Positions 10,531 through 59,473 of a stretch of 64,000 nt of DNA are shown in pieces. Below the pieces are notes generated by a model that saw only the letters and a list, made by a program, of their open reading frames with translations, did no database searches and had not been told where the DNA came from. Within the stretch, counting starts at the first letter, position 1. Each line of letters opens with the position of its first letter. Origin of the DNA: an uncultured Candidatus Entotheonella sp. (GTDB lineage: Bacteria; Tectomicrobia; Entotheonellia; Entotheonellales; Entotheonellaceae). The position numbers and the translations under genes are program-made. The stretch spans positions 1,165,300 through 1,229,299 of the forward strand of contig OX639990.1 of assembly GCA_951828535.1 (NCBI GenBank), given 5' to 3'.

Positions 10531-11499
10531 GTGATACATGCCGCCGATCTGTCGATGCACTACGGCCCGCGGGTCGCCCTCGAGGGAGCCAGCTTCGACG
10601 TCGAGCCGGGTCAGGTGGTCGGCTTGCTGGGGCCCAACGGCGCCGGCAAATCGACAACCATGAAAATTCTGACGACCTACCTGTATCCCACGCGCGGCAC
10701 CGCCACCGTGGGCGGCAAGAGCGTGCGAAACGAGCCCCTGGCGGTACGGCGCCTGATCGGCTACCTGCCGGAAGTGGTGCCGCTGTACCCGGAAATGCGG
10801 GCCGGCGCTTATCTGAACTTTGTTGGCCGCGCTCGCGGCCTACGGGGCGCCCGACTGCGCCAACGCCGTGCCTGGGCGGAGGAGCACTGTGGCCTGCAAG
10901 GGGTGGGCCGTCAGCTTATCCGTGAATTGTCCAAGGGGTATCAACAGCGTCTGGGACTGGCGCAGGCACTCATCCATGACCCCCAGGTGGTGATGCTCGA
11001 CGAACCCACCTCCAGCCTCGACCCGCACCAGATTCTGGCGGTGCGGCGGCTCGTCCGCGACCTCGCCGCCGCCGGCAAAACCGTACTGCTCTCCACCCAC
11101 ATTCTGCAAGAGGTGGAGGCCACCGCCGACCGCCTGGTCATCATCAACCAGGGGCACATCGTCGGCAATGGCACGCTGGCGGACTTGCAGCGGGACCTGC
11201 GGCAGCACGAACGCGTCTCGCTGTCCGTAGCAGCGCCGCGGCAGGAGATCGAGGCGGCCTTGCAAACCCTGCCCGGATTACTGGACGCCCGTTTCGTGCA
11301 GGCCAGCGATGCCTACACTTTGTTCGAGGTGTGCGCCGCCGCCGGCACGGGCCTGCCCCGGAAACTCGGGGTCCTGTTCAGTAACAAAGGCTGGCGCGTC
11401 GGCGAGTTGCACGTGCAGCCGCCCACGCTGGAGGAAACGTTCCTCGCCCTCACCGCTCCACCCGCTACCGATGAGGCCCCCGCAGCTCATGTTTGCTAA
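10531..11499 (+). CDS. ABC transporter ATP-binding protein, Gld type (copy 1)
   Basis: A 322-residue ABC-2 type ATPase. Walker A is GPNGAGKST at residues 34-42; the signature reads LSKGYQQR and is followed by Walker B VVMLDEPTSSLDP and the His switch STHILQE. A C-terminal extension of about 90 residues after the ATPase core is typical of GldA/NatA-like exporters. Start is GTG with AAGGAA upstream. It overlaps the next gene, a fused permease, by 11 bp and must energise it at the inner membrane. The minus-strand gene at 19119-20075 is a close paralogue, sharing long stretches such as TTMKILTTYLYPT and QALIHDPQV. Confidence 0.93.
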   Translation: MIHAADLSMHYGPRVALEGASFDVEPGQVVGLLGPNGAGKSTTMKILTTYLYPTRGTATVGGKSVRNEPLAVRRLIGYLPEVVPLYPEMRAGAYLNFVGRARGLRGARLRQRRAWAEEHCGLQGVGRQLIRELSKGYQQRLGLAQALIHDPQVVMLDEPTSSLDPHQILAVRRLVRDLAAAGKTVLLSTHILQEVEATADRLVIINQGHIVGNGTLADLQRDLRQHERVSLSVAAPRQEIEAALQTLPGLLDARFVQASDAYTLFEVCAAAGTGLPRKLGVLFSNKGWRVGELHVQPPTLEETFLALTAPPATDEAPAAHVC

Positions 11500-13918
11500 C
11501 CTCCTTACCCTTGTCCGCCGCGAGTTGAACGCCTACTACACGTCGGCCATCGCCTACATCGCCCTGCTCGTCTTTCTCAGCCTCACCATGGGCCTGTACA
11601 TGGCGCCGTTTTTCACCGTCCTGGCGGCCGACATGCGCGTCTTCTTCACCATTCTGCCCATCGTCCTGTGCGTGTTTCTGCCCGCCGTCAGCATGCGCCT
11701 GTGGGCCGAGGAACGGAAGCAAAACACTTGGGAAATGCTGCTCACCTTCCCGATGCGCGCACACGAGCTGGTGCTGGGGAAATTCCTTGCCAGCCTGATC
11801 TTCTACCTCAGTGCCCTGGCCGGCACCCTCATGCTGCCGGTGATGCTCCATTGGCTGGGCAATCCCGACTTCGGCCCCATCCTCGGCGCCTACTTCGGCA
11901 GCCTTCTGCTCGGCGTCTTCTTTCTATCCCTGGGGCTGTTTATCTCGGCACTGTGCCGCGACCAGATCGTCGCCTTCATGCTCACGCTGCTCGGCTGCTT
12001 CGGGTTCTTCTTGGCGGGCACCGAGTTTGTCGTCACCCTCGCCGAGGCTGCCTGGCCGGGCCTGGGCACCCTGTTGGCCGAGGTGATCGGCGTGACACAG
12101 CACTACATGACCTTCACGCGGGGTCTGCTGGTGGTCGGCGACGTGGTGTATTTCCTGATCTGGACGGCGGTCTGGCTGGTGCTGAACAGCCTGTTTCTGG
12201 AAATTCGCAGCCGCCCGGCAACGCGCAACGGCTTTCTGGCGGCAGTGGCCCTCTGTCTGAGCGTCGGCCTCACCGCCAACTGGCTACTGGCCGAGCAGAA
12301 TTTGGGACGGATCGATCTGACCGAGGACCAACTTTACACGCTGTCGCCGGCGTCGCGGCGCATCCTGAGGCAATTGCCGGAGCCCGTGCAAGTGAGCCTG
12401 TACATCACCCCCCGCCAGCAACTGCCTATCAGCATGCGCTACCTGGAACGCGACATCCGCGACCAATTCGACGACATGCGCCTGGCCAGCGAGGGCAACC
12501 TGCGCACCCGGGTGGTGCATCTGCAAACGGCTGACGTGATTCGTCCGGCGGAAACCATCGCGGCGCCGGACGACACGGCCATGCCCGACGTGCAGCAGCG
12601 CCTTCTGGATCAGGGGGTACGGCCCTTCTCGGTGCAGGTGCTGCAGGGCGACGACATCGTCAACAAGCTGGTCTATGCCGCCATCGGCGTGGCCTACAGG
12701 CACAAGCCCGAAGCCATCATCCCCCGCCTGCTGCCGCATGATCTGGAGACGCTGGAATACCGCCTCATCAACCTCATCGACAAGCTGCACCGTGACACCC
12801 AGCCGCTAGTGGCGCTGGTGGCGCCGCGCGACCCGCTGCACCTGCCGGAATACATGCGAGAACTCTATACGCAGATGGGCCGCTCACTACCCGAGACCGA
12901 GGACCCGTACACCGTGCTGGAACGCCTGCTGTCACGCGAACGCTACGAGGTGCGGCGCTTCGAGTCGCTCGCCGACGGCATCCCGCCCGAGGCGCATACC
13001 ATCGTGGTGCTGCATCCGCGGCGCCTGCCGGCCGAAGACCAGTTGTTGCTGCGTAAGGCTCTGCACGAGGGCAAGTCCGTGTTTCTCGCCGTCCAACAGT
13101 ACCGCTGGAACTACACGCTGGGGCGCCAAGACGTGTCCATCACCCAGGAGCCGCAGCATCCCGAGGTCAATTACTGGCTGCAGCATTACGGCATTACAGT
13201 CGATCCCGCCGTGCTGATGGACGTCAACCATCAGGCCATGACCGTGCACGACACCGACACCCTCGTGGACGCTCTGGTCGGCAGCGGCATCACCCTCGAC
13301 CTGCCGCTGCACATGACCATCCCGCGGCCGGCCATGAACGCGGCGGTCTCCATCACCAGCCGCCTGGCGCCGTTGTTTTACCTGTGGGGCAGCGCCCTGA
13401 GCCTGCAGCCCGATGTTCTGCGCGATCACGGCCTCAACGCCACCGCCCTCTTCTCCACCAGCCCGCGCGCCTGGCGCGTGTCCAGCGACGCCGCGCTCAC
13501 CGCCGACAACCTGGAGCCGCCAGCCGCCGGTCAGCAATACCCCCTGGCCGTTCTGGTGGAGGGGCAGTTTCCGCCCGTCGATGGCTCCCTGGTGCGTGAC
13601 GCTTCCCCCGGCAAGCTCATCGTTGTCGGCAGCGCCCAGATGTTCCACCGCAACTTCCTCATCGGCGGCAACGCCGACCTGTTCCTTAACAGCATCGACG
13701 CCCTTACCCTCGGCGAGGACCTCATCCACGTGCGCGGCAAGAAGCACCTCAACCGCACCATCAGCCAACCGACGCCCGACGTCCGCCGCTTCTGGAAATT
13801 CGCCACCGTCGGGGGCACCAACCTGCTCGTCGCCATTATCGGGGGCATCGTCGCCCTCACCCGCCGTCGGCAGCCAATGGTCGCAACCACCACTCACCAG
13901 ACTGCAAAACACTTGTAA
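11489..13918 (+). CDS. Fused ABC-2 permease and GldG-like protein (copy 1)
   Basis: An 809-residue inner-membrane protein. The first 235 residues form a six-helix ABC-2 permease with the motif ERKQNTWEMLLTFP. After a further membrane helix comes a GldG-type (ABC-transporter auxiliary) region starting near RIDLTEDQLYTLS, probably outside the cytoplasm, and a final C-terminal helix before an RRR tail. Gliding-type systems in Bacteroidota encode GldF and GldG separately; here they are one chain. The ATG at 11489 matches the start of the paralogue at 16616-19111. The partner DUF4340 protein found with the other copy is missing here. Cargo unknown. Confidence 0.88.
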   Translation: MFANLLTLVRRELNAYYTSAIAYIALLVFLSLTMGLYMAPFFTVLAADMRVFFTILPIVLCVFLPAVSMRLWAEERKQNTWEMLLTFPMRAHELVLGKFLASLIFYLSALAGTLMLPVMLHWLGNPDFGPILGAYFGSLLLGVFFLSLGLFISALCRDQIVAFMLTLLGCFGFFLAGTEFVVTLAEAAWPGLGTLLAEVIGVTQHYMTFTRGLLVVGDVVYFLIWTAVWLVLNSLFLEIRSRPATRNGFLAAVALCLSVGLTANWLLAEQNLGRIDLTEDQLYTLSPASRRILRQLPEPVQVSLYITPRQQLPISMRYLERDIRDQFDDMRLASEGNLRTRVVHLQTADVIRPAETIAAPDDTAMPDVQQRLLDQGVRPFSVQVLQGDDIVNKLVYAAIGVAYRHKPEAIIPRLLPHDLETLEYRLINLIDKLHRDTQPLVALVAPRDPLHLPEYMRELYTQMGRSLPETEDPYTVLERLLSRERYEVRRFESLADGIPPEAHTIVVLHPRRLPAEDQLLLRKALHEGKSVFLAVQQYRWNYTLGRQDVSITQEPQHPEVNYWLQHYGITVDPAVLMDVNHQAMTVHDTDTLVDALVGSGITLDLPLHMTIPRPAMNAAVSITSRLAPLFYLWGSALSLQPDVLRDHGLNATALFSTSPRAWRVSSDAALTADNLEPPAAGQQYPLAVLVEGQFPPVDGSLVRDASPGKLIVVGSAQMFHRNFLIGGNADLFLNSIDALTLGEDLIHVRGKKHLNRTISQPTPDVRRFWKFATVGGTNLLVAIIGGIVALTRRRQPMVATTTHQTAKHL

Positions 13919-16615: not shown

Positions 16616-19111
16616 TTACGCCGCTTGCGCCGCCGTATAGGCCGTCCGCGCCCGACGACGGATTGCCGCCCCGCCGACGCCGATCACCGCAATACCGAGA
16701 TTCACCAGGCCCAGGTTCATCACCCGCCAGAACTGCCGCGTCGCCGCGCTGGGCTTGCTGATGCTGCGGTTGATGCGCTTCTTGCTGCGCACGTTCACCA
16801 ATTCATCGCCCAGCGTCAGGGCGTCGATGCTGTTCAGGAAAAAATCTGCGTGACCGCCGGAGAGGAAATTGCGGTGGAACATCTGCGCATTACCCACCAG
16901 CAGCAACCTACCGGGCGCCGGCTGCGGGTCGCCGAGCGGCGCGTCCACCGGCGGCGTCGGCGCCGAGGCGCCGGGCTGCGCCGGCGGCGGCTCCCAAGCC
17001 GGGCGCTCCACGCCGGCGTACACGTCGGGAAACTGCCCGCGCGCCAAGACTGCCAGCGGAAAGCGTTGCCCATCCACGTCGGGCCGCTGCAGGTTCTCCG
17101 GCGTCATGGACACGTCCTCTGGAAGCGCCCATGCCAGCGGACTCGTCGTCAGCAGTACCGTGTGATCCAACCCGTTGTCCGCCAGAACCTCCGGACGCAC
17201 GTCCAGAGCGCTGCCCCACAGATAGAACAGCGGCGACAGACGGTTGGTAATCGACACGTCCGTGTTCATTGACTCCTGCGTCAGCAGGACGTGCATCGGC
17301 AGGTTCAGGGTAATGCCGCCGCCCAGCCGCGGATTGGACCCTCCTCGAATGGTCAGCGGCCCGTGGTTGACGTCCATGAGAATCTGCGGATCAATCTCCA
17401 GCCCGAAATGGCTCAGCCAGTCGTTCACCTGCGGGTTCTCGTCCTGCCGCGTCATGGCCACAACCTGCTGCTCCACATGGTAGTCCCAGCGGTAGTTCTG
17501 GACGGCCAGGAACACCGATTTGCCCTCGTGCAGGGCGCGGTTCAAGTCCCAGCGCTCCCGGTCCGACAGGGTGCGCGGGTTGATGACGACCACGGTATCC
17601 ACCTCCGGCGCGATGGTCGCCGAGCCATCCGTATCCAGCCGCCGCACGTCGTAGCGCTCAACCTGCAACAGGCGCTCCAGGCTCTGATACGGATCGTCCG
17701 ACTGCGGGATTGGGCGGTTCATGCGCCGATAGAGTTCCATGAGTTCCGGCGGAATGCTGACCGCCTGCTTGGGCGCGAACAGCGCCACCACGGGCTGCTG
17801 CTTGCGGCTCATCTTGTAAACGATGTTGATAAGCCGGTACTCCAGATTGTCCAGATCGTTCGGCAGCAGCCGCGGGATGATTTCCTCATCCTGATTCTTG
17901 TAGGCCACTCCGATGGCCGCGTAGACCAGTTTGTTGATCACCTCGTCCTCGCGCAGCGCCTGCACCGTAAACGGCCGCACCCCCTTGCTCAGCAGCCGCT
18001 TCTCCACCGCGCCCTCCTCGTCCTCGGGCTCCGGCGGCATGTCGCCCGGCTCCTGCTGCTGAATGACATTGGCCGTTTCCATGTGAATGGTGCGCGTCAC
18101 CAGATTGCCGCCGCCGGCCAGCTGCATCTCCTCCAGCTTGTCGAGGATGTCGCGTTCCAGGTAGCGCATTTCGGTCGGCATCTTGTCGCTCGGCGTGATG
18201 TACAACTTCACCTGCACCGGCACGTCCAGATCCCGCAGAATCTTCACCGAGGCATTGGAGAGCGTGTACAGCTTGTCCTCCGTCAGGTCGAAGCGCCCGA
18301 TGTGCTGACCGGCGAAGATCCAGTTGAACGCCAGCCCGATGCCCAGGCTCAGCACCACAGCGCCGGCGAACGTGCGGCGCGCCGCCGGACGGCTGCGAAT
18401 TTCCAGCAACAGGCCGTTCAGGAACAGGAAAATCGCTGTCCATATCACGAAATACAAGATGTTGCCGATGGTCACGATGCCGCGCGTGAACGGGTTGTAA
18501 TGCCCCGTGAAGCCGACCACGTCGGCCAGGAACACCCCCAAGCCCGGCCAAGCGCTGTCCACAAAGCGCGCCAGGAACTCCGTGCCCAGAAAAAAAAGCC
18601 CGAAGCACGCCAGCAGCGTCACCACGAAGGCAACAATCTGGTCGTTGCACAGGCTGGAGATGAACAGCCCCAGCGCCAGGAAAAAGGCGCCCAGCAGAAT
18701 GGTGCCGAGGTATGCCCCGGCAATCGTGCCAAAATCGGGATTGCCGAGCGATGCCAGCATCCACGGGATCGTCAGGGTGCCGGCAAGCGCGATGACGAAG
18801 AACACCAGGCCCGCAAAGAATTTCCCCAGCACCAGCTCGTGCGACTGCATCGGGAAGGTCAGCAGCATTTCCCAGGTGTTCTGCTTTCTCTCATCGGCCC
18901 AGATACGCATGGTCACCGCCGGCAGGAAAATGCACATGATGAGCGGCAGGGTGTTGAAGAAGCTGCGCATGTCGGCCACTAACAGCGTGAAGAACGGCGT
19001 CATGAACAGCCCGACGCTGAGCAGCAGGAAGACGATCATGAAGATGTAGCCGATGGCCGAACGGTAATACGAGGCCAATTCCCAACGAAAAATGGTGCCG
19101 AGATTCCGCAT
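16616..19111 (-). CDS. Fused ABC-2 permease and GldG-like protein (copy 2)
   Basis: An 831-residue paralogue of the protein at 11489-13918 with the same order: ABC-2 permease (residues 1-240, with ERKQNTWEMLLTFP), a transmembrane helix, a GldG-like region beginning RFDLTEDKLYTLS, and a C-terminal helix. It differs by a Pro/Ala-rich insertion near residue 720 (PPPAQPGAS). It follows its ATPase by 7 bp and precedes the DUF4340 gene, so ATPase, permease-GldG and DUF4340 form a complete operon. Located in the inner membrane with the GldG part outside. Substrate is unknown. Confidence 0.9.
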   Translation of the reverse strand: MRNLGTIFRWELASYYRSAIGYIFMIVFLLLSVGLFMTPFFTLLVADMRSFFNTLPLIMCIFLPAVTMRIWADERKQNTWEMLLTFPMQSHELVLGKFFAGLVFFVIALAGTLTIPWMLASLGNPDFGTIAGAYLGTILLGAFFLALGLFISSLCNDQIVAFVVTLLACFGLFFLGTEFLARFVDSAWPGLGVFLADVVGFTGHYNPFTRGIVTIGNILYFVIWTAIFLFLNGLLLEIRSRPAARRTFAGAVVLSLGIGLAFNWIFAGQHIGRFDLTEDKLYTLSNASVKILRDLDVPVQVKLYITPSDKMPTEMRYLERDILDKLEEMQLAGGGNLVTRTIHMETANVIQQQEPGDMPPEPEDEEGAVEKRLLSKGVRPFTVQALREDEVINKLVYAAIGVAYKNQDEEIIPRLLPNDLDNLEYRLINIVYKMSRKQQPVVALFAPKQAVSIPPELMELYRRMNRPIPQSDDPYQSLERLLQVERYDVRRLDTDGSATIAPEVDTVVVINPRTLSDRERWDLNRALHEGKSVFLAVQNYRWDYHVEQQVVAMTRQDENPQVNDWLSHFGLEIDPQILMDVNHGPLTIRGGSNPRLGGGITLNLPMHVLLTQESMNTDVSITNRLSPLFYLWGSALDVRPEVLADNGLDHTVLLTTSPLAWALPEDVSMTPENLQRPDVDGQRFPLAVLARGQFPDVYAGVERPAWEPPPAQPGASAPTPPVDAPLGDPQPAPGRLLLVGNAQMFHRNFLSGGHADFFLNSIDALTLGDELVNVRSKKRINRSISKPSAATRQFWRVMNLGLVNLGIAVIGVGGAAIRRRARTAYTAAQAA

Positions 19112-19118
19112 TGTTTGC

Positions 19119-20075
19119 TTATCCTTGTCGTCCCGAAGCGCCGTTCTTGGGGGCCGTCAGGGCCAGAAAAGTCTCTTCCAGGGTGCCGACCTGCGGCGCC
19201 AGAATTCCCACCTGCCAGCCCCTGGCGCGTACCAGCTCGCTCACCTGCTGCCACAACTGCACGCCGTGCGCCGCGTCCACCGTGAAGTGCTCGAAGCCAT
19301 CCGCCGCTTCGTCGTACCGCACCTGCCCGACATCCGGCAACTGGTTCAGCGCCGCCTCCACCTCCGCACGCGCGGCGCTCACCGACAGTTGCAGCCGCTG
19401 CCGCTGCTGCGCCCGCTGGTTCAACTCCTGAGGGGTGCCGTCACCCACGATAAGGCCGTTGTTAATGATGACAATGCGGTCCGCCACCGCCTCCACCTCT
19501 TGCAGAATATGGGTGGAGAGCAACACGGTCTTATCTCGCGCCAGACGGCGAATCAGGTAACGAATTTCAAGGATCTGGTGCGGGTCGAGACCGGACGTCG
19601 GCTCGTCGAGCATGATCACCTGCGGGTCGTGAATCAGCGCCTGCGCCAGCCCGACGCGCTGCCGGTAGCCCTTGGACAGTTCCCGGATCAGCTTGCGGTA
19701 CATAGGCGCCAGGCCGCAGCGCTGCACCACCCAGTCGGTGCGCTCGCGCAGCATCGCACCCTGCAGGCCGCGCGCCTTGCCCACGAATTGAAGGTAGGTA
19801 TGCACGTCGGCATTGGGGTAAAGCGGCAAGGTTTCGGGGAGGTAACCGATGAGTTGCCGGACTTCCAGGGGGGAGGTAAGCACGTCCTTGTCGCCCACCA
19901 CGGCGCTGCCCGACGTGGGATAGAGGTAGGTGGTAAGGATTTTCATGGTCGTCGATTTGCCGGCGCCGTTCGGCCCCAGCAGTCCGACGACCTCACCACG
20001 CTGCACGGCAAACGTCGCGTTACGCACCGCCACCACCGAACCGTAACGCATGGAAAGGTCCTTGACGGTAATCAC
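19119..20075 (-). CDS. ABC transporter ATP-binding protein, Gld type (copy 2)
   Basis: A 318-residue ABC ATPase with Walker A GPNGAGKST, signature LSKGYRQR, Walker B VIMLDEPTSGLDP and His switch STHILQE. Start is GTG with AAGGAG 6 nt upstream. It opens the three-gene minus-strand exporter operon. It is highly similar to the plus-strand copy at 10531, which indicates an inverted duplication of the transporter or two acquisitions from related sources. The C-terminal 90 residues, outside the ATPase core, are more divergent. Confidence 0.93.
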   Translation of the reverse strand: MITVKDLSMRYGSVVAVRNATFAVQRGEVVGLLGPNGAGKSTTMKILTTYLYPTSGSAVVGDKDVLTSPLEVRQLIGYLPETLPLYPNADVHTYLQFVGKARGLQGAMLRERTDWVVQRCGLAPMYRKLIRELSKGYRQRVGLAQALIHDPQVIMLDEPTSGLDPHQILEIRYLIRRLARDKTVLLSTHILQEVEAVADRIVIINNGLIVGDGTPQELNQRAQQRQRLQLSVSAARAEVEAALNQLPDVGQVRYDEAADGFEHFTVDAAHGVQLWQQVSELVRARGWQVGILAPQVGTLEETFLALTAPKNGASGRQG

Positions 20076-50915: not shown

Positions 50916-51755
50916 GTGGCGACCTACGCAATCGGAGACGTGCAGGGGTGCTTCGGCAGCCTGCAGGCGCTTCTTGAAAAGCTCCCGTTCGATCCCGACC
51001 GCGACCGGCTGTGGTTCACCGGCGACCTGGTCAATCGGGGCCCGCGTTCGCTCGAAACGCTTCGTTTTGTCCGTGATCTGGGCGACCGGGCCGTCACTGT
51101 GCTCGGCAATCACGACCTGCACCTGCTGGGGGTGGCGTGCCACGGCAGACGACTCAAGGCCAGCGACACCATCGACGACGTTCTGGAGGCGTCGGACCGC
51201 GACGACCTGATCGCCTGGTTGCGCCGCCAGCCGTTGTTGCACCGCGACGCTGATCGCGCCATTACCATGGTGCACGCCGGGCTGCCGCCGCAGTGGACGC
51301 TTGACGTGGCGCAGGCGTGCGCCGCGGCCGTCGAGGCCGAGTTGCGCGGCGCTGGCATCAAGAAACTGATGCGGCAAATGTCAGGTAATCAATGCGATAC
51401 GTGGTCGGTCTCCCTGCCCTACGCCGACCAGCTCGGATACATTGTCAACTGCCTGACCCGGCTGCGGTACTGCGACCCGGCCGGGCGCCTGGAGTTGCGG
51501 GAAAAGAGGCCGCCGGGAAGCCAGCCGGCGCCCTATCTGCCGTGGTTTACGGTGCCGGGGCGGCTGTACGCCTCGGAAACCGTTATCTTTGGCCACTGGG
51601 CCAGCCTAGGGACCTGCAACGAACCTGGGGTCTACGCCTTGGACACCGGTTGTGTATGGGGCGGCGTGTTGACCGCGCTGTGCCTGGAAACCTGGGAACG
51701 TACGAGCGTTCCCTGTCGTGACGAAATCGAAGGAGGAACCCATGCCGAAGCTTGA
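50916..51755 (+). CDS. apaH: Symmetrical bis(5'-nucleosyl)-tetraphosphatase, ApaH
   Basis: A 279-residue metallophosphatase that splits Ap4A into two ADP. Metal-binding motifs: GDVQG (residues 7-11), GDLVNRG and GNHDLHLL, with later His in HAGLPP. The length and HAGLPPQW, HWASLG signatures are those of ApaH rather than PrpA/E. GTG start with AGGAGG 5 nt upstream. Divergent from aat. Its last 14 bp overlap the start of the GrdB-type selenoprotein gene, a coupling that suggests shared control. Confidence 0.93.
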   Translation: MATYAIGDVQGCFGSLQALLEKLPFDPDRDRLWFTGDLVNRGPRSLETLRFVRDLGDRAVTVLGNHDLHLLGVACHGRRLKASDTIDDVLEASDRDDLIAWLRRQPLLHRDADRAITMVHAGLPPQWTLDVAQACAAAVEAELRGAGIKKLMRQMSGNQCDTWSVSLPYADQLGYIVNCLTRLRYCDPAGRLELREKRPPGSQPAPYLPWFTVPGRLYASETVIFGHWASLGTCNEPGVYALDTGCVWGGVLTALCLETWERTSVPCRDEIEGGTHAEA

Positions 51756-52938
51756 ACGTCTGAGCGCCGTGGTACGCCAGGTCCTGACGTCCTTTCCCTG
51801 CCTGGAGGCCGACGATACCCCATGGACGCCGCCGACCCGAGAACTGAAGCACAGCAACCTGGCATTGGTCACCTCGGCGGGCCTGCACTTGCGCGACGAC
51901 AAGCCGTTCGCCGCCGACGTCAAGGGCGGCGATACGTCGTACCGCGTCATTCCCTCGGACGCCAAAGCCACGGACATTTTGCAAAGCCACACCAGCATCG
52001 GCTTCGACCACACCGCCATCTACCGCGACCTCAACGTCACTTTTCCGCTCGACCGGATGCGCGAGTTGACCGCACGGGGCGTCGTTGGCGGCCTGGCGCC
52101 GAACGCCTACTCGTTCATGGGCGCCCTCCGCGACATGCGGCGCATCGTGGAAGAAACCGGCCCCGAAGTCGCGCAGCGCCTCAAGGACGAAGGCGCCGAG
52201 GTCGTTTTTCTCACTCCCACCTGACCCCTGTGCACGCACACCGTGAGTGTGCTGGCCCGGGTCTTCGAGGCCGCCGGTCTCGCGACAGTATGTATTGCCA
52301 TGGTCCGTGAGCACGTCGAGAAGGTGAAGCCGCCGCGGGCGTTGTTCGTCCCCTACCCGTTCGGCTTTGCTCTGGGCAAGCCGAACGATGCCGACTTGCA
52401 GCACCGGATCATTGCCGCGGCGTTTCAACTCCTTGAGAAGCCAGAGGGTCCGATTCTGGCGGACTTTCCCGAGGACGAGATTCCCGACGTGCTGCCCCAA
52501 TCGTCCGGCGTCACGCGTAACGGCGCCCAATCCACCGCGGACGCCGCCGATGAGATTGCCGGGCTGCGCGCGTTTTACGAACGCTGGGTGGAGGAGCACG
52601 ATGGCCGCACCGCCGTGGGCCTCAGTGGCGTTTCGCAGCGGCGCTGGCGCGGCCTCGTTCGCTTCCTTGAAGCGTACGCCCGCGGCGAGGAGGTGGACAT
52701 GAAGGAGCGTCCGGCCGACGTGGCGCTGCCGCAGTTCATTCGCTACTGCGTGGACGATCTCAAAGCGTTCTATTACGAGGCCCGCATGGCGCAGAAGCCG
52801 TCAACCAGCGAGCCCGACCTGCACGTCTGGTTCTGGGGCGAGACGGTGATCGGCCAACTCATCCCCGCGGTTGGCGAGTCTATGCAGGCCAGCGAGGATC
52901 CCGCGGCGAAGGCGGTAGCCTTCGGCCTTGCCCGTTAA
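51742..52938 (+). CDS. GrdB-family selenoprotein with in-frame TGA as selenocysteine
   Basis: Read through the TGA at 52222-52224, this is one 398-residue protein of the glycine/sarcosine/betaine reductase selenoprotein B family. The 160 residues before the TGA end VVFLTPT; the frame stays open afterwards and reads PLCTHTVSVLARVFEAAGLATV, so the stop lies exactly where the family has Sec in a U-x-x-C motif (U161, C164). The second part contains PYPFGFALGKPND, typical of this family. A perfect hairpin follows 11 nt after the TGA. GGAGG precedes ATG 51742. No other glycine-reductase subunit is present, so the role is probably a different seleno-redox reaction. A stop-split pseudogene is the alternative. 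Confidence 0.88.
52222..52252 (+). promoter_or_regulatory. UGA recoding site with putative bacterial SECIS hairpin
   Basis: TGA (52222-52224), an 11-nt spacer, then GCACAC (52236-52241) pairing perfectly with GTGTGC (52247-52252) around the loop CGTGA. Position and size fit a bSECIS element; the function is inferred. Confidence 0.7.
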
Positions 52939-53452: not shown

Positions 53453-55243
53453 ATGAAACCCCTGCACGTCGCAGCACTCGTGAAACAAATACCCAAGTTT
53501 GAAGTCATGGCGCTCGGGCCGGATGGTCGTTTGCAGCGCGACGGCGTCGAACTCTCCATGAATCCCTATTGCCAGCGCGCGCTCAGCAAGGGCATCGAAC
53601 TGGCGCAAGCCACCGGTGGACAATGCACGGTGATCTCCCTGGGGCCTCCGGCGGCGACAGACGTGGTTCGCTGGGGCGTCGCTGCGGGCGCTGACAGCGG
53701 CATCCTGATTTCCGATCCGGCTTTTGCGGGCTCGGACACCTTGGCGACCGCCAGGGCGTTGGCCGAGGTGATCGAGCATGGTGGCCCCTTCGACTTGATT
53801 CTAGTCGGCAAGAACGCGGTTGATGCCGATACCGGGCAGGTGGGCCCTGAGTTGGCGGAATTGTTGGGCTTGCCGTTCGCCGCTGCCGTCCGTAGCCTGG
53901 AGCTTCGTGACGACGGCATGCTGTGCGTCGGATGCGAGCACGACGATGCCTGGGTCGAGGCGGAAGTGCCACTTCCCGCTGTGATATCGACTGCCGAGCG
54001 TCTGTGTCGACCGGCGAAGGTTGATGATCCGGACAAAGCCGCTGTGCCGGCGGAGAAAATACGCACGATCACGAGTGCTGATCTGGGCAATGGCCCTTGG
54101 GGGGTTGCCGGCAGCCCGACCTGGGTGGGCGAAACGAAGGTGTTGGAGGTCAAACGGGAGCGCCGCATCCTTAGCGGCGCCCTGCAGAGCCAGGTGGCGG
54201 AAGCAATGGCCCTGCTTCGGGCTCGCCGTGCTTTCGAGGACGTAAGAGCCGAGGTAGCTGCAACTGTGGGCGAGTCCGTGGCTAATCCTGTCGCCACAAT
54301 CGCCGTTCTCATTGAACCAGGCAATACTGGCAGTGCCCGCGAGTTGCTTGGCGCCGCCGCACAGATGGCGCCGCAAATCGGCGCCCGAGTCACCGGCGTT
54401 CTGGCCGGACCAGCGGATGATACGAAGCCGGAGGAATTCTATTCCTGGGGTGCGGACCATCTCTGCGTATTGGAACAGGGATCCGTGGAGGAAGACATCG
54501 CGCATTTTGTGGCGTCGTGGTGCCACACCCACCCGCCGCGGTGCCTGTTTGCCCCAAGCACCTCGTGGGGTCGCGAGGTGGCCTCGCGCGTCGCGGCCCG
54601 CACCGGCTCCGGCCTGACGGGAGACGCGATTGCACTGGAATATGAAGATCAGCAATTGGTGAGCTGGAAACCGGCTTTTGGCGGGCGGCTTGTGGCGGCA
54701 ATCCGTTCGACGTCGGCCATTCAAATGGCCACCGTGCGCCCCGGTGTACTGTCCCGCCCAGAGCCGCGTAAAACGCGCCTGCCATCCATCGAACGGCATG
54801 TCGTCGAGGCGGCGTCACGGGTGCGGGTCATCTCACGTCGGCGGAACGACCAATTGGATACTCTGACCATGGCGTCGCGAGTCGTGGGGGTTGGCATGGG
54901 AATTCCGCCGGAGCGCTACCCGGAGCTCGATTCCATGCTGGCTGTCCTGGGAGCCGAGCTTGCGACGACGCGGAAGGTGACGGACAAGGGCTGGCTGCCG
55001 CACGCCCGTCAAGTCGGGATTACCGGTCGCAGCATTGCGCCCAATCTATACATCGGCATCGCCGTGAGCGGCAATTTCAATCACACCTGCGGCATTCAGG
55101 CCGCCGGCACGGTAATGGCGATCAATTCCGATCCCCAGGCGGCCATTTTCGAGCACGCCGATATCGGCATCGTGGCCGACTGGGCCGATTCCGTGCCGTT
55201 GCTGGTGAAGGCTTTCGGCGACCTGCTGCCTAGCGCCCGGTGA
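53453..55243 (+). CDS. Fused electron-transfer flavoprotein, EtfB-EtfA
   Basis: A 596-residue single chain joining the two normally separate ETF subunits. Residues 1-260 are the beta subunit (start HVAALVKQIP, then MNPYCQRALSKGIELA and DLILVGKNAVDADTGQVGPELAELLGLP). From about residue 285 comes the alpha subunit, with the FAD domain RQVGITGRSIAPNLYIGIAVSG and AINSDPQAAIFEHADIGIVADW. ETFs accept electrons from acyl-CoA, dimethylglycine and sarcosine dehydrogenases. GAGGAAG precedes the ATG. Its end overlaps the convergent enoyl-CoA hydratase gene by 14 bp. Possible electron donors in the window: the flavoprotein at 6947-9415. Confidence 0.9.
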   Translation: MKPLHVAALVKQIPKFEVMALGPDGRLQRDGVELSMNPYCQRALSKGIELAQATGGQCTVISLGPPAATDVVRWGVAAGADSGILISDPAFAGSDTLATARALAEVIEHGGPFDLILVGKNAVDADTGQVGPELAELLGLPFAAAVRSLELRDDGMLCVGCEHDDAWVEAEVPLPAVISTAERLCRPAKVDDPDKAAVPAEKIRTITSADLGNGPWGVAGSPTWVGETKVLEVKRERRILSGALQSQVAEAMALLRARRAFEDVRAEVAATVGESVANPVATIAVLIEPGNTGSARELLGAAAQMAPQIGARVTGVLAGPADDTKPEEFYSWGADHLCVLEQGSVEEDIAHFVASWCHTHPPRCLFAPSTSWGREVASRVAARTGSGLTGDAIALEYEDQQLVSWKPAFGGRLVAAIRSTSAIQMATVRPGVLSRPEPRKTRLPSIERHVVEAASRVRVISRRRNDQLDTLTMASRVVGVGMGIPPERYPELDSMLAVLGAELATTRKVTDKGWLPHARQVGITGRSIAPNLYIGIAVSGNFNHTCGIQAAGTVMAINSDPQAAIFEHADIGIVADWADSVPLLVKAFGDLLPSAR

Positions 55244-56030
55244 ACACCGGCGGGCGTTTCTCCCGCCAAGCCCGCGGTCCCTCCTGGGAGTCTTCCGTGC
55301 TACGACAGATCAGCATCGCCCATTCCAAATAATCCAGGGTGGAATCGAGGTCGGAATTCAGGCCCTTACGCACCGCGCGCTTGATAAGCTGCGTTGCGAC
55401 CGGCGGTTTGCGTGCGAATTTCTCGGCATACGCCTGGGCAAATTGTGCGAATTCCTCATGCGGCACGACATGATTGACGTAGCCTATACGCAGGGCTTCC
55501 TGGGCATCGAATGGCTCTCCACCCCAAATCAGCTCGTATGCCTTGGCGAGGCCAACGATGCGGGGCAGAAAATAGGCGCCGCCGTCACCGGTCACCAATC
55601 CCATGTTGATGTAACTCATCACGAACTTGGCTTTGTCGGAAGCAATGCGAATGTCCGCCATGCTGGCCATGTCCATACCGGCGCCGGCGGCCGGGCCATT
55701 GACGGCGGCGATGTAGGGCTTGTCGAGTTGCGAGACCGCACGCGGCACCCGGTGCACACCGTGGCGCATGTGGTTGCGCTGGTCGTGCAGGGGCGGCGGC
55801 GTTGCGTCGGGACTGTAGACGAAACCTTTGACGTTGCCGCCGGAACAGAATCCGCGACCCGCGCCGGTGACCATGATCACCCACACCTCGTTGTCGTTCT
55901 GGGCGCGCAGTAAGGCGTCCGTCCACTCCGTCAACATCAAATCGCTGAACGCATTCAACGATTCGGGACGATTCAGCGTGATGGTGGCCACACGATTTTC
56001 TACTGTGTAGACGATTTCTTCGTAATTCAT
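55230..56030 (-). CDS. Enoyl-CoA hydratase/isomerase family protein
   Basis: A 266-residue crotonase-fold protein. ITLNRPESLNAFSDLM starts the family; the oxyanion-hole segments are GRGFCSGGNVKG and NGPAAGAGMDMASMADIRIAS. One usual catalytic Glu position near GLVTGDGGAYFLPRIVG is Gly-Asp rather than the typical pair, so it might be a hydratase, isomerase or thioesterase-like member. A GGGGAAG sequence precedes the ATG. A longer upstream frame overlaps the next gene and is spurious. Confidence 0.9.
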   Translation of the reverse strand: MNYEEIVYTVENRVATITLNRPESLNAFSDLMLTEWTDALLRAQNDNEVWVIMVTGAGRGFCSGGNVKGFVYSPDATPPPLHDQRNHMRHGVHRVPRAVSQLDKPYIAAVNGPAAGAGMDMASMADIRIASDKAKFVMSYINMGLVTGDGGAYFLPRIVGLAKAYELIWGGEPFDAQEALRIGYVNHVVPHEEFAQFAQAYAEKFARKPPVATQLIKRAVRKGLNSDLDSTLDYLEWAMLICRSTEDSQEGPRAWREKRPPVFTGR

Positions 56031-56079: not shown

Positions 56080-57171
56080 TCAGGCCTGTCGGAACCCCTC
56101 GATGGAGGCCGCCGGCGTGCCGTTGCGCAGCGCCAATGGCCGGGTAATGGCGCGGGTTTCGCCGAACGTGGGGATGAAGCAGGAATGCTTGCCGGCCCCG
56201 CCGGCCACGAGCACGATGAGGTCCTGCGCCGAAGACACCACCGGCACGCGGGCTTGCGAGGAAGACGCCCCGGCGGCATCACCCAAAAAGTGAGCGGCGT
56301 TTTCCGGGCTGAATCGCCCGATATCGATGCGGGCGTGCTCATAAAGCCAGGCTTTGGCGTCTTGCTTCGTAAGGCCATCGGCTGCCACCGTGGCGGCATG
56401 CTCGGGACCAAAGACGACAACCGGCTGACCGCCTCCAGTCGCGTTGTTGCAACCGACGACGGCCATGGTCTCAGCGATCGTTGTCAGGATGCTCTCCGCC
56501 CGGATGCTGCCGTGGTCATTGATATTGTGGGGCGCCTCGGCGCCCACCACGGTTACCGTGCTGACGTCGGCGGGGTAGCCGCATTCCACGTGCCACGGCT
56601 CCCACGGGCTGTCGGCCTCATTTTCGGCGAAACAGTAGGTGTACTTGGCCGGCGTACCCAAGGTGGCGCGGTCGAGTTCTCCCGGCTGGGCGCCGGCCAC
56701 ATTGGTCATCACCAGCCGCACGGCCCGCCCGATGGTGGCGTTGCTGCGCCAGCCCTGCCCCATGGCGTTGTAGCCGGCATTGATATGCAACTCGCGGCCA
56801 ATGGGGCCGTTTACAAACACCATCGGTGTGCAGGGATGCGTGGTTGCCAAGACGCCGTACAGATTGAAAGCATCGTCCGCAAGGGCCTGGACGGCGGTGA
56901 TAACAACGGGCAGATACTGGGGCAGGCAACCTGCCATGACGGCGTTGATGGCGATCTTTTCCACGGTGGCCTGTCCCTTGCGGGGCGGCAAGGCAGCAAT
57001 GACCTCGTGTGGCGGCAAATCCGTGTAGGTCAGCATGTTCTGCACGGCTTGCGGCGTCGGCGGGATGATGGGGAGACCGTCGGTCAGGCCGTGGGCATGG
57101 AAGTACGCCTGCATCTCCTCAAGCGCGTCGGGCAAGCGTATCGTCTCTGACTGCAGGGGCAAGGCTACCAT
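56080..57171 (-). CDS. Conserved UGSC-neighbour protein, unknown function
   Basis: A 363-residue protein for which I know no biochemical role. It opens with a short lead and then HGLTDGLPIIPPTPQAVQNML, seen (from memory) in genes next to UGSC selenoproteins. Later segments: INAVMAGCLPQYLPVV, THPCTPMVFVNGPIGRELHIN, VVGCNNATGGGQPVVVFGPEHAAT and GGAGKHSCFIPTFG. Four conserved-looking Cys residues could form redox or metal sites. No signal peptide or membrane helix. It follows the UGSC gene by 49 bp on the same strand, so they are probably one operon and may form a complex. Confidence 0.7.
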   Translation of the reverse strand: MVALPLQSETIRLPDALEEMQAYFHAHGLTDGLPIIPPTPQAVQNMLTYTDLPPHEVIAALPPRKGQATVEKIAINAVMAGCLPQYLPVVITAVQALADDAFNLYGVLATTHPCTPMVFVNGPIGRELHINAGYNAMGQGWRSNATIGRAVRLVMTNVAGAQPGELDRATLGTPAKYTYCFAENEADSPWEPWHVECGYPADVSTVTVVGAEAPHNINDHGSIRAESILTTIAETMAVVGCNNATGGGQPVVVFGPEHAATVAADGLTKQDAKAWLYEHARIDIGRFSPENAAHFLGDAAGASSSQARVPVVSSAQDLIVLVAGGAGKHSCFIPTFGETRAITRPLALRNGTPAASIEGFRQA

Positions 57172-57220: not shown

Positions 57221-57772
57221 CTACACGCTTGCCAACTGCCGTTCCGAGGTCGTGCATAGCTGCTCGACGGTGTTCAAGACGCTGGCGGCTCGTTGCTGCA
57301 CCTCTTCAGCCGCCAGGCCGCCAAGCGGGTGTTTGATAGTGGCGAGCGGCAAGGCGGGCATGCCGAGCGCCTCAGCCTCGGCTCGCCCCAAGGTGACGAA
57401 TTCGGAGGAGCAAATCGTCACCGTCGGCACGCCGCGCTTTTCCAACTCAATGGCGTCGTGGACACTCCACGACGTGCAGGAGCCTCAATCCCCAACCGCG
57501 TTCAGAACGATGTGACATTTCTCCAAGTCGGCGATGACGTCGCCGGAAGACGGGGAACTGATGCCCTTATGGCGATAGATCACCTCGCTGAAGTGAAACC
57601 GCTCGGCCAATTCGCTCTGAATCGCCTGCAACAGCAAATCGCCGTTCGGCTTGCTATTGCTCAGAATGCCGAGAGTCGCCCCCTGCAGGCTTGTTGGCCG
57701 CCGGGCCAGATCGTACGCCCCCTGCTGGGGTATGCCGCGTGGGTCCAGCACGTCGATGTATCGCTCGGTCAT
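57221..57772 (-). CDS. UGSC-family selenoprotein with in-frame TGA as selenocysteine
   Basis: Read through the TGA at 57487-57485, this is a single protein of 183 residues. It opens YIDVLDPRGIP, reaches HIVLNAVGD, then Sec96-Gly-Ser-Cys99 and TSWSVHDAIELEKRGVPTVTIC. The U-G-S-C motif names a known family of (seleno)proteins of unknown function; Cys replaces Sec in some members. A perfect 8-bp hairpin starts 10 nt after the TGA. The ATG 57772 is 60 bp after the upstream MeaB gene. Without recoding the product would be a 95-residue fragment. The alternative, a nonsense mutation, would not explain the stop falling exactly on the family Sec position. Confidence 0.88.
57454..57487 (-). promoter_or_regulatory. 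UGA recoding site with putative bacterial SECIS hairpin
   Basis: On the minus strand: TGA (57487-57485), 10-nt spacer, CGTCGTGG (57474-57467), loop AGTGT, CCACGACG (57461-57454). The 8-bp stem is perfect. Confidence 0.72.
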
Positions 57773-57832: not shown

Positions 57833-58786
57833 TTAACGCCACAGATCGTCGTTTTCCACCAGCATCTGTTGCGCTGCTGTATACGGATCCACCGTGCCTT
57901 CTTCCACTTGTTCAAGCAAGCCAGAATGGGCTTCGCCGTCATCGAATTGTGCCGTCAAGGTTGCCATCAATTGTTGCTGAAGCAAATCGAGCAGTTCCTG
58001 TCGCCGGTTCTGTTGGCGGCGCGTCGCCAGCTGGCCGGTCTCCGACAACTTGCGACGATGGGTCGTGATCGCCTCGTGGAGTTCCACGATACCGATGTCT
58101 TTGTGGGCTTGGGTGCCGAGAACGGGGGGGCACCAGCCATCGGAGGCGTGGCGGATATGGAGCATCATTTGCAGGTCGCGCTGCAGGCGCTCGACGCCAT
58201 CGCGGTCGGCCTTGTTGATCACGAACAGGTCGGCGATTTCCATGATGCCGGCCTTAATGGTTTGGATGGCGTCGCCGCTTTCGGGCACCAGGATCAGGAC
58301 CGTCGTATCGGCGGCGGCCACGATATCGAGTTCAGTCTGACCAACGCCAACCGTCTCAACGATGATCAGGTCCTTGCCGAACGCATCGAGAAGTTTGATA
58401 ACCCCTTTGGCGGCACGGGACAAGCCGCCGTGGTGGCCGCGGGACGCCATGCTGCGGATGTAAACCCCCGCGTCGAGGTAATGTTGCTGCATGCGGATGC
58501 GGTCGCCCAGAATGGCGCCGCCGGAGTAGGGGCTTGTGGGGTCAACGGCGACAATGCCAACGGTCTTGCCTTGTTGGCGGGCATACGCCGTCAGTCGGTC
58601 GGTGATGGTGCTTTTGCCCGCGCCTGGCGGCCCGGTGATGCCGATACAATACGCGTGTCCGAGCATGGGGGTAATGCGCTGCATGATTTCCGGGACTTCG
58701 GCACTTTGTCTTTCCACCGCTGATACGAGTCGTGCCAGTGCCCGTTGATCACCGGTGAGCATTTTTTCCACCAGTTCCGCAGGCAT
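57833..58786 (-). CDS. meaB: MeaB/ArgK-type P-loop GTPase chaperone
   Basis: A 317-residue G3E GTPase that guards and loads B12 into acyl-CoA mutases. Walker A GPPGAGKST at residues 52-60; VAVDPTSPYSGGAILGDRIRM, VETVGVGQ and NKADRDG follow, the family's Mg, switch and base-recognition motifs. It lies 39 bp after the B12-binding subunit gene on the same strand, the usual partnership. The catalytic mutase subunit is not in the window. A longer frame overlaps the B12 gene and is spurious. Confidence 0.93.
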   Translation of the reverse strand: MPAELVEKMLTGDQRALARLVSAVERQSAEVPEIMQRITPMLGHAYCIGITGPPGAGKSTITDRLTAYARQQGKTVGIVAVDPTSPYSGGAILGDRIRMQQHYLDAGVYIRSMASRGHHGGLSRAAKGVIKLLDAFGKDLIIVETVGVGQTELDIVAAADTTVLILVPESGDAIQTIKAGIMEIADLFVINKADRDGVERLQRDLQMMLHIRHASDGWCPPVLGTQAHKDIGIVELHEAITTHRRKLSETGQLATRRQQNRRQELLDLLQQQLMATLTAQFDDGEAHSGLLEQVEEGTVDPYTAAQQMLVENDDLWR

Positions 58787-58825: not shown

Positions 58826-59233
58826 CTATGACCGCTGCGGCGCGTGTTCGCGAATGTAGTCGACAATATCGGCGATGGATGAGCCGGGGCCGAATAAGGC
58901 CTGTACGCCACTGGCCTGCAACCCTGGGATGTCGTGTTCCGGGATGGTGCCGCCGCCAACCACCAGAATATCCCCGGCGCCCTGCTCCCGGAGCAATTCC
59001 ACAACGCGGGGAAAGAGGACGTTGTGCGCCCCCGACAGGCAACTCAACCCTACGACATCGACATCCTCCTGGATGGCTGCCGAGGCGATCTGCGCCGGTT
59101 GCTGCCGCAGACCTGTATAGATAACCTCGATACCCGCATCGCGCAGGGCGAGGGCGAGAACCTTGGCGCCGCGGTCGTGGCCATCCAGACCGGGCTTGGC
59201 AATCAGAACGCGGATCCTCTGAGTTGTTGTCAT
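58826..59233 (-). CDS. Cobalamin-binding subunit of an acyl-CoA mutase
   Basis: A 135-residue free-standing B12-binding domain, as in the small subunit of methylmalonyl-CoA, isobutyryl-CoA or ethylmalonyl-type mutases. The base-off/His-on motif D-x-H-x2-G is at D17, H19, G22; later [11 protein letters not shown] and [11 protein letters not shown] line the corrin pocket. First gene of a minus-strand run B12-binding, meaB, UGSC, UGSC-neighbour, ECH. The large TIM-barrel subunit must be encoded elsewhere. Confidence 0.92.
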
Positions 59234-59473
59234 GCCGCTTTTGCTCTCCCTAATGGCGCCTTGGCTAGGGATGCCGGGCTCCCAGCGGCGGCGATTCTAG
59301 CAACGGGCTTTCCGGGGGTCAAGAAAACGACGCCGTCGCGGCGTGCCCGAAAACCTTGATTGCAGGGCAGATGCGGTTTATACAACTCGACAGGCTGCTG
59401 GGTCGTCAAAAGGAGTTGCCGGCCTGATATGCCATGGCTCCGAATCCACTCAGACAACTGGAGAGACACCACC

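Follow-up and report, generated by a model that had tools for sequence, protein, structure and literature searches.

A UGSC-family selenoprotein gene and its conserved partner gene in an uncultured Candidatus Entotheonella: a tentative case for a two-part selenoenzyme

A UGSC-family gene in a run of five genes

The DNA analysed here (the window) is a stretch of 64,000 nucleotides from contig OX639990.1 of an uncultured Candidatus Entotheonella sp. On its minus strand it carries a run of five genes encoding, in order of reading, a B12-binding subunit, a MeaB-type GTPase, a UGSC-family selenoprotein, a partner protein and an enoyl-CoA hydratase (Table 1). A reading made from the sequence alone (the sequence-only reading) had described the UGSC gene as part of a run with MeaB, a B12-binding subunit and a further neighbour, and all of these were located as described. 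The UGSC gene starts with ATG at 57772, just behind GAGGAG, and ends with TAG at 57221, comprising 183 codons in total. Its frame had been described as open save for a TGA at 57487-57485 that is followed by G-S-C; exactly this was seen, and the TGA, the only one in frame, corresponds to residue 96. The promoter match upstream of the run is a match to the consensus only, and one such match was found where 1.5 were expected. Elsewhere in the window, between 10531 and 19111, two similar ABC-type export/GldG-like gene sets face each other. A search for phage families gave no match.

Table 1 Features of the window discussed in the text
Feature	Position	Strand	Remarks
UGSC-family selenoprotein gene	57221-57772	-	183 aa, Sec96 and Cys99
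In-frame TGA, predicted Sec (U96)	57485-57487	-	family Sec column
SECIS-like hairpin	57454-57474	-	8-bp stem CGTCGTGG/CCACGACG, loop AGTGT, 10 nt past the TGA
Partner protein	56080-57171	-	363 aa; 49 nt after UGSC gene; no Pfam or NCBIfam family; adjacent or fused across phyla
Enoyl-CoA hydratase/isomerase family protein	55230-56030	-	ATG at 56030; 49 nt after partner; probably same operon
MeaB-type GTPase	57833-58786	-	60 nt upstream of UGSC gene; probably same operon
Stand-alone B12-binding subunit of acyl-CoA mutase (methylmalonyl-CoA mutase C-terminal type)	58826-59233	-	39 nt upstream of MeaB
Sigma-70-like promoter match TTGACC-N17-TAGAAT	59294-59322	-	upstream of the five-gene run
PrdB-like selenoprotein candidate	51718-52938	+	one TGA, ..LTPTUPLCTHT..; below PrdB cut-off TIGR04483
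ETF beta and alpha domains in one frame	53453-55243	+	596 aa; between the two selenoprotein genes
ABC-type ATPase	10531-11499	+	
ABC-type ATPase	19119-20075	-	
ABC-type long membrane protein	11309-13918	+	
ABC-type long membrane protein	16616-19111	-	

The protein had been assigned to the UGSC family and, indeed, it scored above the curated cut-offs of both family models, with 148.8 bits against 125 for NF041046 and 185.5 bits against 25 for PF24696. By its sequence, the window gene is a UGSC-family selenoprotein and a further member of this known family, which has been in print since at least 2008 without an assigned function (PMC2398784). Placed on the family including its Cys forms, the TGA falls on the Sec column, which is occupied by Sec in 97 and by Cys in four homologues from the loci collected; the motif reads UGSC in 84 of 107 hits and CGSC in four. 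Residues downstream of the TGA are kept family-wide (G97 and F125 in 100%, C99 in 99%). The frame beyond the TGA is conserved across the UGSC family and, therefore, translated; on the sequence evidence, the TGA encodes Sec at the family position.

A SECIS-type hairpin and the Sec-decoding genes

A perfect 8-bp stem with a 5-nt loop had been noticed 10 nt past the TGA and was confirmed, with the arms CGTCGTGG at 57474-57467 and CCACGACG at 57461-57454. Folded alone, this hairpin stands out only mildly (z -1.56; 18 of 200 dinucleotide shuffles were as good) and, therefore, the case for a SECIS element rests on the family. For the family, the 45 nt past the TGA were folded and compared with versions in which codons were randomised and the protein was kept. 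The mean z was -1.48 in the Sec forms (n = 97) vs -0.41 in the Cys forms (n = 4), and control stretches at four offsets in the same genes gave values of 0 to -0.3. Covariation was determined in 77 distinct sequences aligned without gaps, columns 17-21 being paired with columns 27-31. In this apical stem 99.7% of the cells are paired and 30 cells carry double changes; covariation amounted to 0.312 vs 0.102 after shuffling (reached in 0 of 500 shuffles) and to at most 0.071 when the stem was slid. Conservation is lower in the outer pairs of the 8-bp stem. Covariation across the family thus shows the hairpin to be a SECIS-type element under selection. An Rfam scan of the window gave no match, which is expected since bacterial SECIS elements are not known to form one single Rfam family. 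The genome also contains Sec-decoding genes, each scoring over its cut-off: selA (606 bits) and selB (363 bits), which are direct neighbours at 3374799-3378091, and tRNA-Sec (73.9 bits).

The UGSC gene is paired with a partner gene across phyla

A UGSC-only search in four related genomes gave 23 assessable UGSC genes, 22 of which have a partner homologue on the same strand within 1 kb, five of these being fused to it; for the 23rd, a broken copy of the partner lies at a distance of about 1.6 kb. A partner-based scan of bacterial and archaeal genomes yielded 80 loci, distributed over Chloroflexota (SAR202 among them), Rokubacteria, several classes of proteobacteria, Binatia, Poribacteria and Natrialba. 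UGSC adjoins the partner at most of them, a count that is biased because the loci were picked by the partner. In-frame fusions of UGSC and partner were found 27 times among the loci studied. The conserved gene pair noticed in the window is thus upheld across phyla, natural fusions included. That UGSC and its partner work together is well supported by these data, and we infer that they interact in the cell. A UGSC/Unknown_1 fusion is described in the 2008 GOS paper by Zhang and Gladyshev (PMC2398784), and Unknown_1 is probably the 363-aa partner. Since the partner gene also occurs without UGSC nearby (one of six in the own genome, plus Poribacteria loci), the partner may be active in its own right.

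Several loci of this collection deserve a separate description. In a groundwater Chloroflexota genome three UGSC-partner fusions lie in tandem (L098:7377-12765), and in Poribacteria loci L132, L133, L136, L137, L138 and L145 the partner homologues miss part of the C-terminal region. In the cultured haloarchaeon Natrialba asiatica three consecutive genes encode a Cys-form UGSC (CGSC), the partner and DUF6282 (L105:5749-8240); DUF6282 adjoins the pair at four loci from different phyla. The partner sequence of a relative genome (G003:C24/L056 and L122) is identical to that of SXND01000013 from MAG F1-120-MAGs186; despite its label Proteobacteria, this MAG therefore belongs to the phylum of the window. 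A literature search for SAR202 together with selenoproteins found no paper.

Paralogues and gene neighbourhood

The own genome holds five UGSC-partner pairs, whose partners fall into five separate lineages in a quick tree. The UGSC protein of the window is 95% identical to its orthologue from the same genus and 31-36% identical to its own paralogues. The commonest immediate same-strand neighbours of the pair are TctC solute-binding proteins (15 of 76), DUF6282 being found in 4 of 76, followed by SBP_bac_5, AMP-ligases, enoyl-CoA hydratases, MmgE/PrpD and TPP enzymes; a CoA transferase was seen, too. TctC is enriched beside the pair within its own loci (16/33 vs 34/174, odds ratio 3.9, p 0.0014); in this statistic a simple length criterion defined the ORFs, and loci related to each other are not independent data points. 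Taken together, the transporter and CoA-metabolism neighbours suggest a catabolic role. A gene of the ComA family (phosphosulfolactate synthase) lies 122 nt upstream of one pair, in the own genome (L038:6461-7231) and in L044, a possible hint that the substrate of this paralogue is sulfonate-related.

The MeaB and B12-binding subunit genes in the run of the window raise the question whether UGSC handles selenium or a cofactor for a B12-dependent mutase, e.g. as a chaperone together with MeaB. We consider this very improbable: MeaB is an immediate neighbour of UGSC in only two loci among about 100, both from this genus, and it is missing from the other four pairs of the own genome and from all other phyla. 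Two mutase large subunits are encoded elsewhere in the genome.

Relation of the Sec region to GrdB and PrdB

With hmmscan, residues 94-178 of the window protein matched residues 344-426 of the GrdB model TIGR01917 with an E-value of 4e-4. When 139 UGSC, partner and fusion sequences were scanned, 35 UGSC-bearing ones matched TIGR01917 (best E-value 2.3e-6); other matches were to GrdF (17), TIGR01918 (13), PrdB (10) and GrdH (8). Comparison of UGSC with GrdB by hhalign aligned Sec on Sec with a probability of 86% and an E-value of ~5e-6 (one comparison), and a PrdB-only profile gave a weak similarity (probability 3.9%). In the reverse search with the UGSC profile one GrdB stood out from a background of 1083 proteins (E 2e-4; 0.0027 for the best single stretch); the others were not found convincingly. 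The confident homology spans about 90 residues. We regard homology of the UGSC Sec region to the C-terminal Sec region of GrdB as well supported, albeit not beyond doubt, and homology to PrdB as more weakly supported. As judged by the family models, the similarity is below the level for membership in the GrdB/PrdB families: 19.4 vs 602 bits for a full-length GrdB match (TIGR01917) and 15.4 vs 65.45 bits for TIGR01918, both below cut-off.

The likeness to GrdB extends to several features: GxC comes after a Sec that ends a strand of an alpha/beta domain, as modelled for UGSC; the Sec subunit stands beside a partner, which for UGSC would be substrate-specific; and one genome has several paralogues, which in the case of UGSC would likewise be substrate-specific. 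Unlike GrdB, UGSC is devoid of the N-terminal half and stays far below the GrdB cut-offs, and by sequence its partner has no relation to GrdE. Indeed, the partner was ruled out as a GrdE/PrdA homologue (hhalign probability 0.2% vs GrdE), and a negative profile comparison ruled it out as the N-terminal half of GrdB. A search for a solved GrdB structure found none. With PrdB, and with the PrdB-like protein of the window, UGSC shares that it is a small Sec subunit with a UxxC motif that does not need GrdA, but the similarity to PrdB is only distant and PrdB pairs with the pyruvoyl protein PrdA. Since the partners of GrdB and PrdB are pyruvoyl-bearing or of the GrdE type, whereas the UGSC partner has no detectable relation to GrdE, substrate activation must differ from that in GrdB/PrdB. 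A precedent for a GrdB-type Sec subunit acting on a substrate other than an amino acid is the fluoroacetate reductase FarB/FarE of Cloacibacillus, which cleaves a C-F bond according to transcriptomic and comparative evidence (PMC10838667); in contrast to the UGSC pair, FarB and FarE are full-length homologues of GrdB and GrdE from an anaerobe.

Apart from the UGSC pairs, the own genome encodes three GrdB with GrdE, a GrdA with a TGA and two PrdB-like genes. One of the latter is the PrdB-like selenoprotein candidate of the window, a member of the GrdB/PrdB superfamily; a gene combining ETF beta and alpha domains lies between it and the UGSC gene (Table 1).

Predicted folds of UGSC and its partner

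The natural fusion L098:9443-11065, whose partner half clusters with the window partner in the tree, was modelled with a pLDDT of 92.6 and a pTM of 0.92. The UGSC half of the model consists of five consecutive beta-alpha units, and Sec follows the third strand. Structural matches of the fusion model were generic Rossmann/flavodoxin-like folds (best E 1.6e-3 among the matches listed); a thioredoxin-like fold was not among the matches listed, which by itself does not exclude one. A search of UGSC by sequence against solved structures found nothing. The UGSC domain is thus predicted to be Rossmann-like, and this model does not fit the thioredoxin-like fold suggested in PMC2398784. What the literature describes for the family, a small single-domain protein with a U-G-S-C motif that is fused to a second domain, applies here as well; new are the Sec region matching GrdB, the Rossmann-like model and the near-obligate partner.

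The UxxC motif would also suit a general thioredoxin-like thiol-disulfide oxidoreductase that keeps the partner reduced, U96-x-x-C99 being a plain redox pair. This reading is unlikely in our view: the modelled five beta-alpha units with Sec after the third strand and the listed Rossmann/flavodoxin-like matches speak against it, as do the 35 sequences that match GrdB, and five diverged paralogues, each with its own partner, better suit a catalytic subunit. The GrdB likeness together with the near-constant partner suggests a catabolic enzyme more than a protein of general redox function.

The window partner was modelled alone with a pLDDT of 92.4. Its best Foldseek match was the alpha subunit of class I fumarate hydratase, 7xky_A (E 1.9e-4, TM 0.23-0.27, Z 4-5), and cyclic amide hydrolases (Toblerone fold) followed with an E-value of about 3e-3. 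With TM-scores of 0.2-0.3 and a best Z of 5.5, these values are below the level the tool regards as meaningful, and the fold resemblances of the model are too weak to assign. By sequence, no relation of the partner to either family was found: it was ruled out as a class I fumarase by profile comparison (probability 0.4%), and a comparison with the sequences of solved structures gave none below an E-value of 0.5. Further, the iron-sulfur ligand motif CQDTG, present in the fumarases of the own genome, is absent from the partner.

These resemblances bear on the idea that UGSC and its partner form an enzyme of a non-redox type (an isomerase, racemase, lyase or hydrolase) that uses Sec/Cys as nucleophile or in acid-base catalysis, with a fumarase-like or cyclic-amide-hydrolase-like partner. 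Besides the Foldseek matches, one member of the sequence set that matches class I fumarase models at 0.0017, the invariant polar residues of the partner, including Arg149, Asn144 and Glu183, and the existence of the partner without UGSC would agree with it. On the other hand, the structural scores are too low, the fumarase profile comparison was negative, CQDTG is missing with C82 (96%) as the sole near-invariant partner cysteine, and the near-universal UxxC (Cys99 in 99%) suits redox chemistry. We therefore rate a non-redox enzyme as rather unlikely, yet as an alternative that should be kept in mind.

A proposed mechanism and its meaning

Our preferred reading, which we put forward tentatively and credit with somewhat less than an even chance, is that UGSC and the 363-aa partner form a two-part Sec enzyme that attacks an organic acid or acyl-CoA in a manner similar to GrdB/PrdB. 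The partner would bind the organic acid or CoA ester, and the selenolate of Sec96, located where a helix begins behind a beta strand, would attack this substrate as in GrdB/PrdB and expel a leaving group. Cys99 would then resolve the Se-alkyl or oxidised state, giving a U96-C99 selenylsulfide which would be reduced by a cellular dithiol system; different paralogues would serve different substrates. Substrate class, reaction, bond cleavage and reductant are what we infer for the pair. Because the run of the window contains a B12-binding subunit, MeaB and an enoyl-CoA hydratase, an acyl-CoA or its acid would be the likeliest substrate class here. Against this reading, many carriers, such as Natrialba and Sphingomonas, are aerobes, in which reductive cleavage is less expected.

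More speculative, and to our mind doubtful as a whole, is the wider reading that the pair is a third branch of Grd/Prd-type enzymes, a large, pyruvoyl-independent and paralogue-rich group of Sec-dependent catabolic enzymes that would span freshwater, soil and marine bacteria including aerobes, with haloarchaea as Cys forms.

Beyond the sequence-only reading, the present analysis adds the link to GrdB/PrdB, the set of paralogues and a proposal for the role of the pair. The relation to GrdB, the near-obligate partner and the Cys-form carriers in culture (Natrialba asiatica, Sphingomonas-type genomes) make the proposal of a two-part, substrate-specific enzyme testable. Ocean surveys count 'PrdB' among their most abundant selenoproteins (PMC1088965, PMC2398784), and many of these ocean 'PrdB' may be PrdB-like genes such as that at 51718-52938 rather than D-proline reductase. 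If the proposal is true, the counts of 'PrdB' and 'UGSC' in ocean surveys would reflect related chemistry, and the supply of selenium would influence how particular organic acids are degraded in lakes, in soils and in the ocean.
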